A stretch of DNA of 21,716 bases from a virus. Position 1 is the first letter of the stretch; every line of letters begins with the position of its first letter. The position numbers were made by a program, and so were the translations under genes. Under the pieces are notes generated by a model, which was given only the letters and a program-made list of their open reading frames with translations, ran no database searches and was not told the DNA's origin. This document shows, piece after piece, positions 2,991 through 11,389 of this stretch. Location of the stretch: positions 1 to 21,716 of IMG/VR virus record IMGVR_UViG_3300046758_000089; one strand, given 5' to 3'.

Positions 2991-3752
2991 ATGACAATCG
3001 AAAAAATGGACTTTAATGCACGTTCCTTATTATTTGCAAAGTTATCAAGTATAGCATATAATAATGTCAAAGAAGCAAAAAGTCAAGCGAAAAAGTTAGG
3101 ATTCACTACAACTGAATTTTACCAAAAAGATGGAGCACAAGCGTATCGCTTCATGAACAAAACAGATCTAGTAATTGCATGTCGTGGAACTGAACCAACA
3201 GAGTTTAACGATATCAGTGCAGACTTAAAAGCATTGCCAGTAATGGCAGAAACGATCTCAAGAGTGCATCAAGGTTTTAAAGCAGAGGTAGACGAACTAT
3301 GGCCTGCTATAACAGAAGACATCAATCGTAAAGTAAACTTAGGCAAAACACTATGGTTCTGTGGACACTCATTAGGAGCGGCAATGGCAACTATAATGGC
3401 CAGCCGTTGTTTACATAATGAAGAACTTAATGATCCGGTTGAACTGTATACATTTGGTTCACCACGTGTGGGTTGGAGAGGATATGTTAAGAGTCTAGGT
3501 GTAACACATCATCGTTGGAAGAACAACAATGATATTGTTACTACTGTTCCACTTTGGATTATGGGCTATGTACATCACGGTACAGAACATTATCTAAATG
3601 CATACGGCAACTACAGAAAGCCTACAGGTTGGCAACTAGTCAAAGACAAATGGCGTGGTATTTGGATGGGTCTAAAGCAAGGTAAGATAGATAGCTTTGG
3701 AGATCATTCAATGACAGAATACATCAAACACATTACACAAATAAAGAGCTAA
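2991..3752 (+). CDS. Class 3 lipase-like alpha/beta hydrolase
   Basis: 253 residues from the ATG at 2991, which has an ideal GGAGG 7 nt upstream; an in-frame ATG at 2952 lacks one. The protein is a Lipase_3 fold: the CRGTEP strand near residues 64-69 (oxyanion region), nucleophile elbow GHSLGAA with S127, FGSPRVG at 155-161, then NDIV with D181 and GDHSM with H239, completing a Ser-Asp-His triad. There is no signal peptide, so it should act in the cytoplasm on esters or membrane lipids of the infected cell. Related genes occur in large phages, with substrate unknown. The 3' end overlaps the convergent prs gene by 20 nt. Confidence 0.88.
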   Translation: MTIEKMDFNARSLLFAKLSSIAYNNVKEAKSQAKKLGFTTTEFYQKDGAQAYRFMNKTDLVIACRGTEPTEFNDISADLKALPVMAETISRVHQGFKAEVDELWPAITEDINRKVNLGKTLWFCGHSLGAAMATIMASRCLHNEELNDPVELYTFGSPRVGWRGYVKSLGVTHHRWKNNNDIVTTVPLWIMGYVHHGTEHYLNAYGNYRKPTGWQLVKDKWRGIWMGLKQGKIDSFGDHSMTEYIKHITQIKS

Positions 3753-4686
3753 CACTTTCTTCGTTTGTTACACGTCTAATAGCTTCACCAAACAAAGGCG
3801 CGACACTAACCTGTCGTGTCTTTTTACAATTCTTAGGACAACGATTAGGAATACTATCTGTAACTACTAATTCGTCAAGCACACTCTTCTCAACCTTTTG
3901 ACATGCTTCGTTTGATAAGACACCATGTGTGATGTAAGCACGAACACTTGCCGCACCAGCATCCATAATTGCTTTGGCCGCATTACATAGTGTGCCACCT
4001 GAGTCTACAATGTCATCTACTAGGATAGCATGTTTACCTTTTACATCTCCTATCAAGTTCATAACTTCGCTCTTGCCTGCTTCTGGTCTACGTTTGTCTA
4101 CGATAGCAATGTCGCCATTGAACATATCAGCAAACTTCCTAGCACGGACAACACCACCTGCGTCTGGTGATACAAATACTGTGCCTTGTTGATGTACTTC
4201 TGGATCGTCTACAATTCCTATTGCACGTTTAATATCTTTTGCAAACACTACACGACTTGTTAAATCATCTACAGGGATATCAAAGAAGCCCTGTATCTGT
4301 CCTGCATGTAAATCCATAGTAAGAATTCTATCAGCACCTGATGTTGTAATTAAATTACTGACAAGTTTAGCAGTAATAGGAGTACGTGACGCACTCTTAC
4401 GGTCCTGCCTAGCATATCCAAAGTAAGGAATAACTGCTGTAATTCTATCAGCACTTGATCTTCGTGCCGCATCAATCATAATCATAAGTTCCATAATGCT
4501 GTCATTAACTGGAGTACATGTACTCTGTATAATAAAAACGTCTTCTCCCCGAATGTTCTCTAAGAACTCCACGCTGGACTCTCCGTCCGCAAACGTGGTT
4601 ACCTTCGCTGGCACTAGTGTTGCAAAACAATGTTCTGCAATCGCTTGTGCTAGGTCTGGATTAGCATTTCCTGTGATAATTTTCAT
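3733..4686 (-). CDS. prs: Ribose-phosphate pyrophosphokinase (PRPP synthetase), class I
   Basis: 317 residues from the ATG at 4686 (MKIITGNANPDLAQ), close to the family's usual ~315. The enzyme makes PRPP from ribose 5-phosphate and ATP for purine, pyrimidine and NAD synthesis. Visible hallmarks are FADGE, the RQDRK segment, DLHAGQIQGFFDIP (metal-binding region), VSPDAGGVVRAR, the PRPP loop VDDIVDSGGT and the typical C-terminus RRVTNEESVSSLF. AGGAAGG lies 14 nt before this ATG but only 8 nt before an in-frame TTG two codons upstream, so TTG may be the true start. It has its own -35/-10 promoter just upstream. No nadV/NAMPT partner, seen in some phages, is present in the window. Confidence 0.95.
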   Translation of the reverse strand: MKIITGNANPDLAQAIAEHCFATLVPAKVTTFADGESSVEFLENIRGEDVFIIQSTCTPVNDSIMELMIMIDAARRSSADRITAVIPYFGYARQDRKSASRTPITAKLVSNLITTSGADRILTMDLHAGQIQGFFDIPVDDLTSRVVFAKDIKRAIGIVDDPEVHQQGTVFVSPDAGGVVRARKFADMFNGDIAIVDKRRPEAGKSEVMNLIGDVKGKHAILVDDIVDSGGTLCNAAKAIMDAGAASVRAYITHGVLSNEACQKVEKSVLDELVVTDSIPNRCPKNCKKTRQVSVAPLFGEAIRRVTNEESVSSLFV

Positions 4687-4737
4687 TTTCAAGTTGTAAG
4701 CCTTCCTACTTTGTTGTTGAGTTAATGTTATACTTAT

Positions 4738-4766
4738 ATAATACACTAACTTGGTTGTTAAGTCAA
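4738..4766 (-). promoter_or_regulatory. Sigma70-type promoter for prs
   Basis: On the minus strand TTGACT (4761-4766), 17 bp, then TATTAT (4738-4743), about 50 nt upstream of the prs start. Same architecture as the phage early promoters on the right side of the window. It begins directly after the pit terminator. Confidence 0.75.
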
Positions 4767-4767
4767 G

Positions 4768-4797
4768 AAAAAAGGCAGTGTCGTTGTACACTACCTT
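4768..4797 (-). terminator. Intrinsic terminator after the phosphate permease
   Basis: On the minus strand a 10-bp stem (AAGGTAGTGT with ACACTGCCTT, one G-U pair) with a 6-nt loop is followed by a run of six T. It sits 11 nt after the pit stop codon, separating pit from the prs promoter. Confidence 0.85.
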
Positions 4798-4807
4798 TCC
4801 AATTTGT

Positions 4808-5767
4808 TTAGTATCCGTTTGGTACTATAACATAGTGTATCATTAACACTACTCCTACTGATGCACCTAAGCCAATCATCATTTTGAAGAAGTCTTTGGT
4901 TACTAATGGAAACACTGTCTTAAACTTTTCCTTGCCTGTCATAGTTGCCATAGCAAGTTCACGTCCACACAGTAAACCTACGAACACCCATGTTGTTGAC
5001 ATAGGTATATCGTTTAGTTCTTTAAAGAACAGTAGTATTAAAAAGTATACACAATCAATAATAGTTGCTGAACGCACATATCTTGTGTTGTGTTTTTCTA
5101 GTACAATCTTTTGGATCTTACCACCACCCTCTTTAAACATAAATGCAAGACCTACAACAAACACAAGACTCACTAGGATCATTAGGTCCCATGGTATCTG
5201 TCTTGGAAGGAACACAGCAATGTTTGCCATGTCATGACTTAGCCAAGTAAACCACAGGAAGCCTGTTGTTACCCATTGTGCTATTCGCCACGCTTTCTTA
5301 TGTTCTTCTTTGACAGGCTTTGCTTCGTTTAGTAGTTTAGTAACTCCTATCCAAATAACATATGCCGCAACTGCCGCGACAGCATAGCCCATCATGCTTT
5401 TCATAAGCATCTTCTCTAATACAAATGTACTTGCAAAGGCACTTAATACTAAAAAAGAAGTACTAACTGGTACTCCTATTCGTGTAAGTATTAATAATAG
5501 TCCTGGTGCCATTGCGTGATACCATTGTATCTCTTGGAATGGAATCTTATTCAAACGTCCGTAACTAATGTCACCTCCGTTCATATACCAACCATACCAA
5601 AGTGTATACAGTAGAACAGCCGAAGCCGCTCCCCACATCACTTTCCAATTAAATTTTTCGTTATTACTTGCGATCCATGTACCTAGTGTTTGTACGGAAT
5701 CATTTGCGATAACTGCGTAACCTGCGAACAGGAAACCTACAGCCATCCATAGGGTGAGTGCGTCCAT
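4808..5767 (-). CDS. pit: PiT-type inorganic phosphate permease
   Basis: 319 residues, very hydrophobic, with roughly eight predicted membrane helices. The duplicated PiT pattern is visible. Repeat one has AVIANDSVQTLGTW (about 18-31) and GVPVSTS (about 98-104). Repeat two has LSHDMANIAVFLPRQ (about 176-190) and IPMSTTW nearer the C-terminus. In the PHO4/PiT family these ANDxxxxxGT and PxSTT segments bind phosphate and cation. It should import phosphate across the inner membrane by ion symport. The start has AGAGGAGAT upstream; the gene ends at its own terminator. It is shorter than most bacterial PiT proteins (400-500), as a compact phage version might be. Phosphate supply for phage DNA synthesis is the likely benefit. 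Confidence 0.85.
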   Translation of the reverse strand: MDALTLWMAVGFLFAGYAVIANDSVQTLGTWIASNNEKFNWKVMWGAASAVLLYTLWYGWYMNGGDISYGRLNKIPFQEIQWYHAMAPGLLLILTRIGVPVSTSFLVLSAFASTFVLEKMLMKSMMGYAVAAVAAYVIWIGVTKLLNEAKPVKEEHKKAWRIAQWVTTGFLWFTWLSHDMANIAVFLPRQIPWDLMILVSLVFVVGLAFMFKEGGGKIQKIVLEKHNTRYVRSATIIDCVYFLILLFFKELNDIPMSTTWVFVGLLCGRELAMATMTGKEKFKTVFPLVTKDFFKMMIGLGASVGVVLMIHYVIVPNGY

Positions 5768-7068: not shown

Positions 7069-7503
7069 ATGAAGACACTAGGATTTTTTGTAGCAGTGTT
7101 TGGTTTGGTATTCGTATCAACCCTTGCATATGCAGAAGATATTACAATTGAAATGTTGAATAAAGATGCAGACGGCAACAAGATGGTTTACTCAAACGAG
7201 TTAGCACGTATTGACGTAGGCGATACTATTACTTGGGTACCAACATCCAAAGGACACAATGTAGAATTCAAAGCAGGTCCAACTGGTTGGAAGGCTCCTA
7301 AAAAATCAAAAAATAGTAAAGAAGTAGCAATTACATTTGATACTCCGGGTATCTATTACTATTGGTGTACTCCACACAAAGGTATGGGCATGATTGGTCT
7401 TGTCGTTGTAGGAGATGATACATCAAACATGGCAACTATTGTTAAAGCAAAAGCAATGGGTAAGTCAAAGAAGAAACTTAAAGCATTGTTAGGTGAACTG
7501 TAA
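7069..7503 (+). CDS. Pseudoazurin (type 1 blue copper protein), secreted
   Basis: 144 residues. A signal peptide (about 1-22, ending LAYA) sends it to the periplasm; mature pseudoazurins are about 120 residues, as here. The type 1 copper ligands are visible: H63 in KGHNVEF, and C100, H103, M108 in CTPHKGMGMIG, with the spacing of pseudoazurin. The N-terminal EMLNKDADGNKMVY and the C-terminal lysine-rich helix also fit that family rather than plastocyanin. Pseudoazurins carry electrons to copper or cytochrome nitrite reductases and other periplasmic acceptors. A Shine-Dalgarno AAAAGGAAA precedes the start, and the stop overlaps the next tiny ORF (TAATG). Confidence 0.92.
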   Translation: MKTLGFFVAVFGLVFVSTLAYAEDITIEMLNKDADGNKMVYSNELARIDVGDTITWVPTSKGHNVEFKAGPTGWKAPKKSKNSKEVAITFDTPGIYYYWCTPHKGMGMIGLVVVGDDTSNMATIVKAKAMGKSKKKLKALLGEL

Positions 7504-7550: not shown

Positions 7551-7596
7551 TAAGTACCAATATAACTAATTAGATATTGAAAGTACTGCTACTACT

Positions 7597-7797
7597 ATGA
7601 AAACAAATTCGAATCCGATTGTTAAAGCTCTAGTAAGACTTAGAATGTTTTATGCTGACGTTCGTGGACATCACGGCAAGCGTTGGAACTATGAACCTTC
7701 TAACTATTATATGGGAATGAAGCAATCTAAGAAGTTTAAGAAAAATGACAGAGCTGTCCGCCAAGACGGCTCTGCCATAACTTCTAAAGTGTTATGA
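7597..7797 (+). CDS. Small basic hypothetical protein
   Basis: 66 residues, strongly basic, with an aromatic middle (GKRWNYEPSNYYMGMKQSKK). There is no convincing Shine-Dalgarno. Its 3' part encodes a strong RNA hairpin (7749-7774), which constrains the C-terminal sequence. No family is recognised. Confidence 0.5.
   Translation: MKTNSNPIVKALVRLRMFYADVRGHHGKRWNYEPSNYYMGMKQSKKFKKNDRAVRQDGSAITSKVL
7749..7774 (+). terminator. Strong hairpin in the 3' end of the 7597 gene
   Basis: CAGAGCTGTC pairs with GACGGCTCTG around a CGCCAA loop: 10 bp with one G-U on the plus strand. On the minus strand the same position becomes a C-A mismatch, so the structure favours plus-strand RNA. No T-run follows on the plus strand. 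It probably limits plus-strand read-through into the convergent gene at 7805. Confidence 0.5.
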
Positions 7798-7804
7798 TTT
7801 AATA

Positions 7805-8041
7805 TTACGACTTGCGATTGTATATATGATATAACACCCATACAGCAACTAGCCCAACTAATCCTTGTGCAGATAACGCTGTTATCATTCCAGTGATGTT
7901 GTCGACTACGCTGATGTTTGGCCAGAACGGAATGCCCTGTCCATTAAAAAGGATTTCAAGTACGATAGCTAATGAAATAAGTGCGATACCTACTTCAGTG
8001 ATTGCGCCTGCCCAACCCTTTACTTTGTTTAAGATTTCCAT
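7805..8041 (-). CDS. Small two-helix membrane protein
   Basis: 78 residues with two hydrophobic segments (about 11-32 AGAITEVGIALISLAIVLEI and about 52-72 ITALSAQGLVGLVAVWVLY), separated by a short loop with a proline/tryptophan motif. An excellent Shine-Dalgarno (AAGGAGAT) precedes the ATG. Two-helix membrane proteins of this size could be holins or modulators of membrane complexes, but there is no specific signature. Confidence 0.75.
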   Translation of the reverse strand: MEILNKVKGWAGAITEVGIALISLAIVLEILFNGQGIPFWPNISVVDNITGMITALSAQGLVGLVAVWVLYHIYNRKS

Positions 8042-8151: not shown

Positions 8152-8568
8152 TTATTTTATCCAGGCTATTTTTTCGCCTGCTTTTACTCTACGTTCTTGC
8201 TCTTTTACACTGCCTGGATATCTCCAAGCCCAAATAGCAACTAGTGCCATAAAGCCTCCGCTCCACATTACAGCCTTAATATTTTCTGTAGTGAACCAAA
8301 GGAATGCTAACGATGATGACATTACTATAATCATCGCATACTTGCCTTTGGTAGGGAATACTTTCTTTTGTACCCAGTTCGTTAAGAACGGTCCAAAGTA
8401 TTTGTGATTATATAACCACTTGTGCATTCTTGGGCTTGACTTTGCAAAACAATATGCGGCCAAGACAAGAAAGATTGAGAAAGGAATACCAGGAACTATA
8501 ATTCCAATGTAAGCCATTCCGAGTGACAGGAATCCAAGTCCCATCCAAAAATATTTTTTAATGTTCAT
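8152..8568 (-). CDS. DUF454 (YbaN-like) inner membrane protein
   Basis: 138 residues with about four hydrophobic stretches. The N-terminal half shows the DUF454 pattern: [35 protein letters not shown] is the core (within about 12-46), then [12 protein letters not shown]. The family is a widespread, uncharacterised inner membrane group. The start overlaps the end of hemA by 11 nt (ATGAACATTAA), so the two are made together, suggesting a haem-related or membrane role here. Confidence 0.85.
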
Positions 8569-9745
8569 TTAATACTTTCCTTAATGAATCCACCAGCTGA
8601 GAAATCATTGCATCTGTATGCAACGGAGTTGGAGCAAATCTCAAACGTTCTGTTCCTTCTGCTACTGTAGGATAGTTAATTGGTTGACAGTAGATGCCGT
8701 GTTCTTCTAACAAAACATCACTGAGTTTCTTACAACGTACAGGATCACCTATCATCACCGGAACAATATGAGTACTTGCATCTGGGTGTACTTCTATATC
8801 ATAGTGTGCAAGTTTTCTTTTGAGTTTACTTGCTTGTAGTTGATGCTGTTCGCGTAATTCGTTGTGGTCCATTACGTACTTAACACTTGCTAGTGCGCCT
8901 GCACATATAACTGGACTAGAACTTGTAGTAAAAATAAAACCTGAGGCAACAGATCGGATAGCGTCTATAACGATCGCTTCCCCTGCGATATATCCTCCCT
9001 GTACACCAAAGGCTTTTCCTAAAGTGCCATTAACAATATCGACTCTATCTTGCAAGCCAAGTTCTTCTAACTTACCTCCGCCATGCTTGCCATAAAGGCC
9101 TACTGCATGTACTTCGTCGATGTATGTTATTGCACCATATTTTTCTGCTAAGTCGCAAACTTCGAGCATAGGCGAAACGTCCCCATCCATGCTATACACA
9201 GACTCAAATACTACACAAGGTGTACCTGACACGTTTTTTAGCTTATCCTCGAGGTCCTCCATATCATTGTGCGTCCATATAACCTTGTCTGCACCACTGT
9301 GTCGAATGCCTTGAATAAGTGAAGCGTGGTTTGCACTATCACTTAGAAACACAATGTCGGGAATGATTTGTTTAAGAGCGACCAACGTCCATTCGTTTGC
9401 GACATAAGCGGACGTATAAAGTAATGCTGTCTCCTTCTTATGAAGTTTAGACAGCTCATGTTCTAATGCAACATGGTAGTGAGTTGTACCTGCAATATTA
9501 CGTGTTCCGCCTGCACCTGCACCTGTTTGGTCTAGTGCTGTATGCATTGCATCTAATACTACTTTGTTCTGCCCCATGCCTAAGTAATCGTTTGAACACC
9601 AGTTTACAATGTTTTTAATATTGTACGGTCCATACCAGATGGCATTAGGATACTCTCCACGCTCTCGGAGTATATCATTAAAAACTCGGTATTTGCCTTC
9701 AGACTTTAGTCTGTCTATTGTCTTTTGAAATGGTTCTTTGTTCAT
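8558..9745 (-). CDS. hemA: 5-aminolevulinate synthase (C4 pathway)
   Basis: 395 residues, near the ~400 of alphaproteobacterial ALAS. The PLP enzyme condenses glycine with succinyl-CoA to 5-aminolevulinate, the first step of haem synthesis. Signatures: [11 protein letters not shown] (50-60), [13 protein letters not shown] (75-87), DSANHAS (136-142), [13 protein letters not shown] (180-192), [11 protein letters not shown] with D210, and the PLP lysine K244 in [19 protein letters not shown] favours ALAS over the related AONS and KBL enzymes. All catalytic segments are intact. Its start lies inside the upstream small ORF (47-nt overlap) and has AAGAAGT upstream. It would raise haem supply during infection. 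Confidence 0.95.
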
Positions 9746-9884
9746 TTAAATACTTCTTAAATTGTTCTTTGTCTACATATGTATAATTGCCTAAATGGTG
9801 TACAGAATGGAATATACCCATTTGGTTAAGTTCTTTCTGTACTTCGTTCCATCCTCGGAACAGTTCTCTAATCCACGTTAGCAT
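9699..9884 (-). CDS. Small hypothetical protein upstream of hemA
   Basis: 61 residues beginning [19 protein letters not shown], with an amphipathic N-terminus and a charged tail. Its 3' end overlaps hemA by 47 nt, unusually long for this genome. No strong Shine-Dalgarno is seen. It could be a coupling ORF or a small regulator; the family is not recognised. Confidence 0.55.
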
Positions 9885-9929: not shown

Positions 9930-9955
9930 CCCCCTGCTGTTTTTTTAGCAGGGGG
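9930..9955 (-). terminator. Strong GC-rich hairpin terminator
   Basis: A perfect 9-bp stem CCCCCTGCT/AGCAGGGGG with an 8-nt loop (all T except one on the plus strand), in the gap between the genes at 9966 and 9884. On the minus strand it follows the stop of the 9966 gene and is followed by CAATCTTTTC, a modest T-rich tract. It probably separates the two minus-strand operons. Confidence 0.7.
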
Positions 9956-9965
9956 TACGATGTCT

Positions 9966-10325
9966 CTATATACTGTTGTTGTAAGAGCTATGCTCTGGGT
10001 AATAGTTATTTTTTGTATCGCCGGTTACGAAGTTGTAAAAGTGTTCTGCGGCGTCTAATACTTCTTTGCTACCTGGTACTTCAGGACCTTTCAAAGTTGA
10101 TGAAAATTGTCCGGTTTTAGGATCACGTTCTACAGTTTGTTCAAACTGACCCCATTTAGCATAATAGTCTTTCCAGACTGAAACACTCGCCAGTTTTAAT
10201 ACTTCTGTGCGAATTTCATATCCGTTTTTGTTTGTGGTTACTTTTGGCATTGCCGCTTTAAACATCTCAGTAAACTCTTTGGTTTGATTAAAGATGGCTT
10301 CACCGTATTTTGTGTCTACGCTCAT
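9966..10325 (-). CDS. Phasin-like conserved phage protein
   Basis: 119 residues, mainly amphipathic helix, with an FNQTKEFTEMFKAAMP helix, an NKNGYEIRTEVLKLASVSV helix (about 32-50) and a charged C-terminal part ending in a glutamine/asparagine-rich tail. NGYEIR followed by a helical stretch reminds me of phasin-type granule proteins and of proteins in marine T4-like phages, but the match is weak. A strong Shine-Dalgarno (GGAG, 6 nt) precedes the ATG, and its promoter contains both an early and a late box. No signal peptide. Confidence 0.7.
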   Translation of the reverse strand: MSVDTKYGEAIFNQTKEFTEMFKAAMPKVTTNKNGYEIRTEVLKLASVSVWKDYYAKWGQFEQTVERDPKTGQFSSTLKGPEVPGSKEVLDAAEHFYNFVTGDTKNNYYPEHSSYNNSI

Positions 10326-10839: not shown

Positions 10840-10847
10840 TATTTATT
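10840..10847 (-). promoter_or_regulatory. Late-promoter-like box AATAAATA
   Basis: On the minus strand AATAAATAGTATT, resembling T4 late promoters that continue with a CTATT-type initiation region. It precedes the secreted protein gene and touches the stop of the AlgH-like gene. Confidence 0.5.
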
Positions 10848-11389
10848 TAGAAATACTCGTCCATTAAACGCGAACTGGCAAGTGATACTCCTGCTTCCCA
10901 TTGATCTTCGTTATCATAGTTATAAAATATATCAAGATTAGGTTCAACTACTAGCCATGCTTTGTGTTTGTATATCTCTGACTGCAACTGTGGAACTAAC
11001 CATGTACTCATTCCGCTCATTAGTCTCCAACACTTAGGCATGTTGTTGTGTGCCATCTTCTCTAACATTAATTCATCTGAGCTAATAGCATTACCGTGTG
11101 TTGCTGGTATTGTATTGGTAGAGTACCAATCGTCTGTGTGTAGAAGTAACAAACTTTGTTCACTAACAGGTCCGCCTCGATACAAATGACCTGCGGCCCC
11201 GCTGTTGACTGCACCTCTCATTGTTTGAATGTCACCTACATTCATGTAACTAGGTTTGTTTAGAATTAATCCAATACAGACTTTCTCTGTTTGTTCATAG
11301 ATGTATACCACACTCTTTGCAAAGTGAGGATCCTTCATTACGTTAGGCTTTGCAACCAAAAGTTTACCTTTGAAGGTGTCTAACATCAT
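10847..11389 (-). CDS. AlgH/YqgE (UPF0301) family protein
   Basis: 180 residues, the normal family length. Signatures are the N-terminal GKLLVAKPNVMKDPHFAKSV, IGLILNKPS near residue 40, and LYRGGPVSEQSLLLLHT near 69-85. This is the UPF0301 family (YqgE, AlgH), conserved in proteobacteria and without an established biochemical function; in pseudomonads AlgH has been tied to alginate regulation. It is cytoplasmic with no signal peptide. Its start overlaps the preceding stop (TAATG) with no separate Shine-Dalgarno, so it depends on translation of the upstream gene. Confidence 0.9.
   Translation of the reverse strand: MMLDTFKGKLLVAKPNVMKDPHFAKSVVYIYEQTEKVCIGLILNKPSYMNVGDIQTMRGAVNSGAAGHLYRGGPVSEQSLLLLHTDDWYSTNTIPATHGNAISSDELMLEKMAHNNMPKCWRLMSGMSTWLVPQLQSEIYKHKAWLVVEPNLDIFYNYDNEDQWEAGVSLASSRLMDEYF

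Follow-up and report, generated by a model that had tools for sequence, protein, structure and literature searches.

An ALAS gene overlapping a DUF454 membrane protein gene in an aquatic phage fragment suggests a haem-handling partner for phage haem synthesis

Phage-encoded ALAS genes (valaS) have been described from marine and freshwater phages by Wegner et al. 2024 (PMC11480375), and ALAS is by now an established phage auxiliary gene, not a new one. The ALAS of phage CB_2 complements an E. coli 5-ALA auxotroph, overexpression of phage ALAS in E. coli leads to porphyrin accumulation and light sensitivity, and the haem-feedback residues known from R. capsulatus (His342 and Cys400) are often missing from the phage enzymes (PMC11480375). 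A haem oxygenase and a bilin reductase accompany phage ALAS in some of the genomes (PMC11480375). The main text of that paper, supplementary files aside, does not mention DUF454, and we found no report of a link between phage ALAS and DUF454 in the literature searched. The bacterial members of this family have been met in other settings. E. coli ybaN is under direct Fur control in two strains (PMC7157518) and is listed among the Fur targets in a nine-strain E. coli study (PMC10164565), DUF454 is up-regulated in iron-limited Avibacterium (PMC7970244), and DUF454 and haem oxygenase co-occur with type 11 secretion (T11SS) genes (PMC12282271). A literature search for YbaN together with heme oxygenase found only unrelated papers.

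The window, by which we mean the whole stretch of DNA that was analysed, is a 21.7-kb fragment from a viral record (IMG/VR virus record IMGVR_UViG_3300046758_000089, positions 1–21,716), and its closest relatives are large aquatic phages. One of these, a 335-kb relative (L143 / G039:C57), has genes for a T4-like gp23, ALAS, DUF454, and bilin reductase on the same contig; it was binned in a Neomarinimicrobiota MAG and is probably a misbinned jumbo phage. The window's ALAS gene (vAlaS; 8558–9745, minus strand) is intact and encodes 395 amino acids. On the same strand, the gene for a DUF454 (YbaN-type) membrane protein of 138 amino acids (8152–8568) has its ATG within the 3′ end of ALAS, and the two reading frames have 11 nt in common (8558–8568), as the initial annotation had stated. 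The interval given there, 8152–9884, also takes in a conserved 61-aa ORF without a family match (9699–9884, minus strand), which overlaps the start of ALAS by 47 nt. Homologues of this ORF were found at 18 ALAS loci, on the same strand in all of them and with a median overlap of 47 nt. The likely operon order is the 61-aa ORF as first gene, then ALAS, then DUF454. A Shine-Dalgarno-like AAGGAAA lies ~ 8 nt before the DUF454 ATG, inside ALAS, and together with the overlap it points to possible translational coupling of the two genes. Upstream of the operon is a strong 9-bp hairpin (9930–9955, minus strand; −18.8 kcal/mol, z −5.6), which is likely to be the terminator for the gene before it (9966–10325), and a scan for sigma-70 promoters returned sites no commoner than in shuffled sequence. 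Adjoining DUF454 on the same strand, a 78-aa hydrophobic protein without a family match (7805–8041) recurs at 14 loci. Both ALAS (dN/dS 0.05–0.12) and DUF454 (0.05–0.23) are under purifying selection; synonymous changes far exceed amino-acid changes, and both genes are therefore maintained.

The identity of the ALAS is clear. In a profile search it scored 565 bits against TIGR01821 (cut-off 338.6), and the next-best family reached 325 bits, under that family's own cut-off. It matches the R. capsulatus ALAS structure 2bwn with 425 bits and aligns over nearly its full length to both 2bwn and 7x98, which are solved bacterial ALAS structures. The active-site motifs are intact, and the PLP lysine, K244, is a lysine in 120/120 phage homologues, which bears out the earlier description of a complete enzyme with all its motifs; its activity is predicted from these features. 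At the column of R. capsulatus His342 the window has Arg337, none of the 120 phage sequences has a histidine there, and the C-terminal Cys is absent from the window's ALAS. The suggestion in the initial annotation that a phage copy could bypass host feedback is thus plausible, but it is not new, because the missing residues and the complementation were already noted for a related phage (PMC11480375).

The DUF454 protein matches positions 1–114 of the 115 in PF04304 and scores 108.6 bits (cut-off 35.1). Its AlphaFold model is all helical with a mean pLDDT of 90.3, and the hydrophobic helices together with this predicted fold fit a protein of the inner membrane. A structure search of the model against the PDB gave no match at E < 3 and no functional hint. 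The histidine of the NHKxFG segment (H55) is invariant in the phage DUF454 alignment and present in most of the bacterial sequences aligned.

To place this pairing among other viruses, contigs were gathered with two ALAS queries, three DUF454 queries, and two haem oxygenase queries, and those having long identical stretches in common were removed; the collections consist of incomplete viral fragments. The initial annotation had named linkage unique to this contig as the outcome that would count against it, yet DUF454 lies within 6–8 kb of ALAS in 99/119 deduplicated ALAS contigs, and in 51 of 60 when one contig was kept per ALAS cluster at 85% identity. It is both the commonest and the nearest neighbour family of ALAS (the median gap between the two is 13 nt), and it is found downstream on the same strand in 59 cases, downstream on the opposite strand in 36, and upstream in 4. 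The commonest spacing is −11 (16 loci), the arrangement seen in the window, followed by −4 (11 loci). Among the marine-type contigs, ALAS and DUF454 are on the same strand and less than 100 nt apart in 53/72 and overlap in 44/72, mostly by 4, 8, 11, or 14 nt. The freshwater-type set has DUF454 within 6 kb of ALAS in 33/47 contigs, on the opposite strand (convergent) and at 443–5750 nt. The association is therefore general, and the tight overlap is found only in marine relatives; the coupling claimed from the single locus holds for these relatives, whereas the freshwater clade has the two genes close to each other but in convergent orientation.

Longer contigs give the same impression. When the ALAS contigs of at least 68 kb were searched whole, DUF454 was present in 38/40, one copy being degraded and some of the 40 being closely related. 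For G080 and G134, DUF454 may lie off the contig, since ALAS is at most ~ 4.5 kb from the contig end in the former and at most 1 kb in the latter. G024 and G131 have both genes, 24–28 kb apart. ALAS distances and DUF454 distances are only in partial agreement (Mantel r 0.35). Two individual contigs showed unusual DUF454 copies: in L034, one ALAS is flanked by two of them (7573–7989 and 9175–9591), and in L268 (G094:C1:21649–21936) three stop codons interrupt the reading frame, and no other copy seen was clearly degraded.

Other genes of the window were considered as well. A pseudoazurin-like cupredoxin with a signal-peptide-like N-terminus (7069–7503, plus strand) has the GHNVE, WCTPH, and GMGM motifs, which would hold the type-1 copper ligands. 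The initial annotation took this gene as a sign of a respiratory theme; it lies on the opposite strand, outside the ALAS operon, and occurs in only 13/90 surveyed loci, so that the theme is weak and a respiratory reading is not supported as part of the ALAS/DUF454 unit. A YqgE/AlgH-family protein (10847–11389, minus strand) ranks second in frequency among the neighbours of phage ALAS (74/119), and an HNH-like family is also frequent (68/119). Further along the minus strand are a ribose-phosphate pyrophosphokinase (PRPP synthetase; 3733–4791; 463 bits to NF002320) and a 319-aa membrane protein (4808–5767), conserved in 30 loci, with a weak PHO4 match below cut-off. We do not claim the pseudoazurin, YqgE, PRPP synthetase, or PHO4-like protein for the ALAS/DUF454 unit.

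Others have shown activity for phage haem oxygenase and bilin reductase. Neither haem oxygenase (hemO) nor bilin reductase (pcyA/X) was seen within the 21.7 kb of the window, and they are frequent in its relatives: haem oxygenase is present in 13/17 large marine-type ALAS contigs, the same 13 of which have bilin reductase, and in 13/19 freshwater-type contigs tested. G152 (262 kb) has ALAS, DUF454, haem oxygenase, and bilin reductase. DUF454 can also adjoin the degradation genes directly. In L122 it overlaps haem oxygenase, which is followed by bilin reductase, and in L119 the order is haem oxygenase, bilin reductase, DUF454. Two contigs without ALAS, G149 (372 kb) and G151 (172 kb), carry DUF454 with haem oxygenase and bilin reductase. 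These had been candidates for DUF454-only phages that would break the link, as had the 58-kb G153, in which ALAS lies elsewhere, and the idea was dropped. Across 50 haem-oxygenase contigs, DUF454 was found in 9/13 with ALAS and 1/37 without (Fisher p 2.6e-6, a value inflated because ALAS and DUF454 usually adjoin and the contigs are fragments). When sampling started from DUF454, with at least 3.5 kb on either side, at least one of ALAS, haem oxygenase, and bilin reductase was present in 37/56 contigs; DUF454 stood alone on several smaller fragments and on G015, a 102-kb partial contig. The coupling with ALAS was put forward as a clue to the role of the family, and its wide conservation, along with the occurrence of DUF454 beside haem oxygenase and bilin reductase, strengthens that view. 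In genuine cultured phages no DUF454 was found, and pelagiphage Mosig and cyanophages do have haem oxygenase. The cultured-phage collection did give ALAS- and DUF454-like matches; these come from records labelled as phage but look bacterial in origin, and they were set aside. By eye, the phage haem oxygenase of L161, L164, and L166 adjoins apparent ClpS-type and small heat-shock protein genes.

Bacterial replicons offer a further view of DUF454. Its plasmid-borne copies in Acinetobacter and Psychrobacter have a haemoglobin-type receptor and a haem oxygenase as neighbours. On the alphaproteobacterial plasmids inspected DUF454 is mostly among genes unrelated to haem. No ALAS adjoined DUF454 in the annotated regions examined of the plasmid records, and the sole listed plasmid record seen with both genes, from Rhizobium sullae, has them ~ 66 kb apart. 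When the phage DUF454 alignment was used to search bacterial genomes, only three matches came up, in odd MAGs, and they were uninformative about bacterial donors; the first of the three is on the 335-kb contig described above, which also has phage gp23, ALAS, and bilin reductase.

Taken by the company it keeps, namely synthesis and degradation genes in phages and uptake and regulation in bacteria, DUF454 appears to have a haem or iron role. We lean towards the reading that it acts as an inner-membrane haem- or iron-handling accessory of a phage tetrapyrrole module. The locus would then be part of a tetrapyrrole gene set in large aquatic phages. The phage ALAS would convert glycine and succinyl-CoA to 5-aminolevulinate, probably free of haem feedback, and so could keep flux through the host haem pathway going during infection. 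DUF454, presumably co-translated with ALAS, might move or shelter haem, or haem-tied iron, at the inner membrane; the additional tetrapyrrole would then be put to use and would not build up as toxic porphyrin. Where haem oxygenase and bilin reductase are present, as is usual in the relatives' genomes, they would consume the haem. Several observations count against this reading: the DUF454 fold has no PDB match, most of the alphaproteobacterial plasmid settings inspected are unrelated to haem, the gene is convergent with ALAS in freshwater relatives, no genuine cultured phage was found to have it although Mosig and cyanophages have haem oxygenase, and the region around it (YqgE, HNH-like genes) is itself partly syntenic. 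The more specific version, in which DUF454 handles haem or tetrapyrrole itself and ALAS, DUF454, haem oxygenase, and bilin reductase form one large-phage module controlling haem synthesis, membrane handling, and breakdown, is put forward tentatively, with confidence somewhat short of even.

The main rival is that DUF454 is hitch-hiking, its linkage to ALAS reflecting common descent within a conserved region of one jumbo-phage group that also holds YqgE, HNH-like, and structural genes. Common descent does explain part of the pattern, because the YqgE and HNH-like families are shared as well and the collections are incomplete fragments. Both families are frequent near ALAS (at the 74 and 68 loci given above), L127 and L433 have DUF454 beside YqgE without ALAS, the freshwater-clade DUF454 is convergent with ALAS, and a search of the 102-kb partial contig found DUF454 but none of ALAS, haem oxygenase, and bilin reductase. 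Against this, co-occurrence persists even though order and strand vary (59/36/4), DUF454 is retained in the genome even at 24–28 kb from ALAS, L122 and L119 have separate cassettes of DUF454, haem oxygenase, and bilin reductase, and the ALAS and DUF454 distances agree only in part. On this evidence we regard hitch-hiking as unlikely.

Two narrower functions have to be weighed beside it. DUF454 might help to supply or retain iron, with ALAS and haem oxygenase as the haem-side partners of an iron economy. Fur control of E. coli ybaN, a conserved target (PMC7157518, PMC10164565), and iron-starvation induction in Avibacterium (PMC7970244) favour this, as does co-occurrence with haem oxygenase, an enzyme that releases iron. 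In phages, nevertheless, the closest partner of DUF454 is a haem synthesis enzyme and not an iron transporter, and the mixed phage and bacterial DUF454 alignment has no evident conserved iron-ligand motif, leaving the idea rather unlikely. Alternatively, DUF454 could export or detoxify 5-ALA or porphyrin and so guard against the porphyrin build-up that ALAS causes. Such a role would suit both the porphyrin accumulation and light sensitivity of E. coli overexpressing phage ALAS (PMC11480375) and the close coupling of the two genes in marine relatives; it sits poorly with G149 and G151, where DUF454 accompanies haem oxygenase and bilin reductase and ALAS was not detected, and with bacterial contexts of haem uptake and degradation, and we consider it quite unlikely. 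The iron and efflux explanations are finer, overlapping versions of the accessory role, and the confidences given here are not additive to one.

If the more specific version, with DUF454 handling haem or tetrapyrrole in a four-gene phage module, is true, a role would be given to the widespread DUF454 family. The link to ALAS would make the role of a Fur-regulated bacterial membrane family directly testable and would add a membrane-handling step to the synthesis and degradation already known in phage haem metabolism.

The locus can be compared with several known systems. The Acinetobacter and Psychrobacter plasmid cassette likewise pairs DUF454 with haem metabolism genes on a mobile element; unlike the phage locus, it serves haem uptake and degradation, not synthesis, and is without ALAS. 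The hemO-pcyX cassette of Pelagibacter phage Mosig also represents tetrapyrrole genes in a marine phage, and the haem oxygenases of Mosig and L122 share 52% identity, but neither a DUF454 nor an ALAS match was found in Mosig. With the DUF454/YbaN family (PF04304), the phage protein shares a full-length match and is the same helical membrane protein. Compared with the aligned bacterial sequences, the phage versions have PGIPFS and a 12-residue motif and a longer basic C-terminus, and they are partnered by ALAS or haem oxygenase. The valaS phages (CB_2, TP6_1, and metagenomic contigs; PMC11480375) have the same Shemin-pathway phage ALAS with feedback residues missing, and their genomes often include haem oxygenase and bilin reductase as well, as do those of the window's relatives. 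What sets the window apart from them is that its ALAS overlaps DUF454, and that the haem oxygenase and bilin reductase of related large genomes are mostly tens of kb away.
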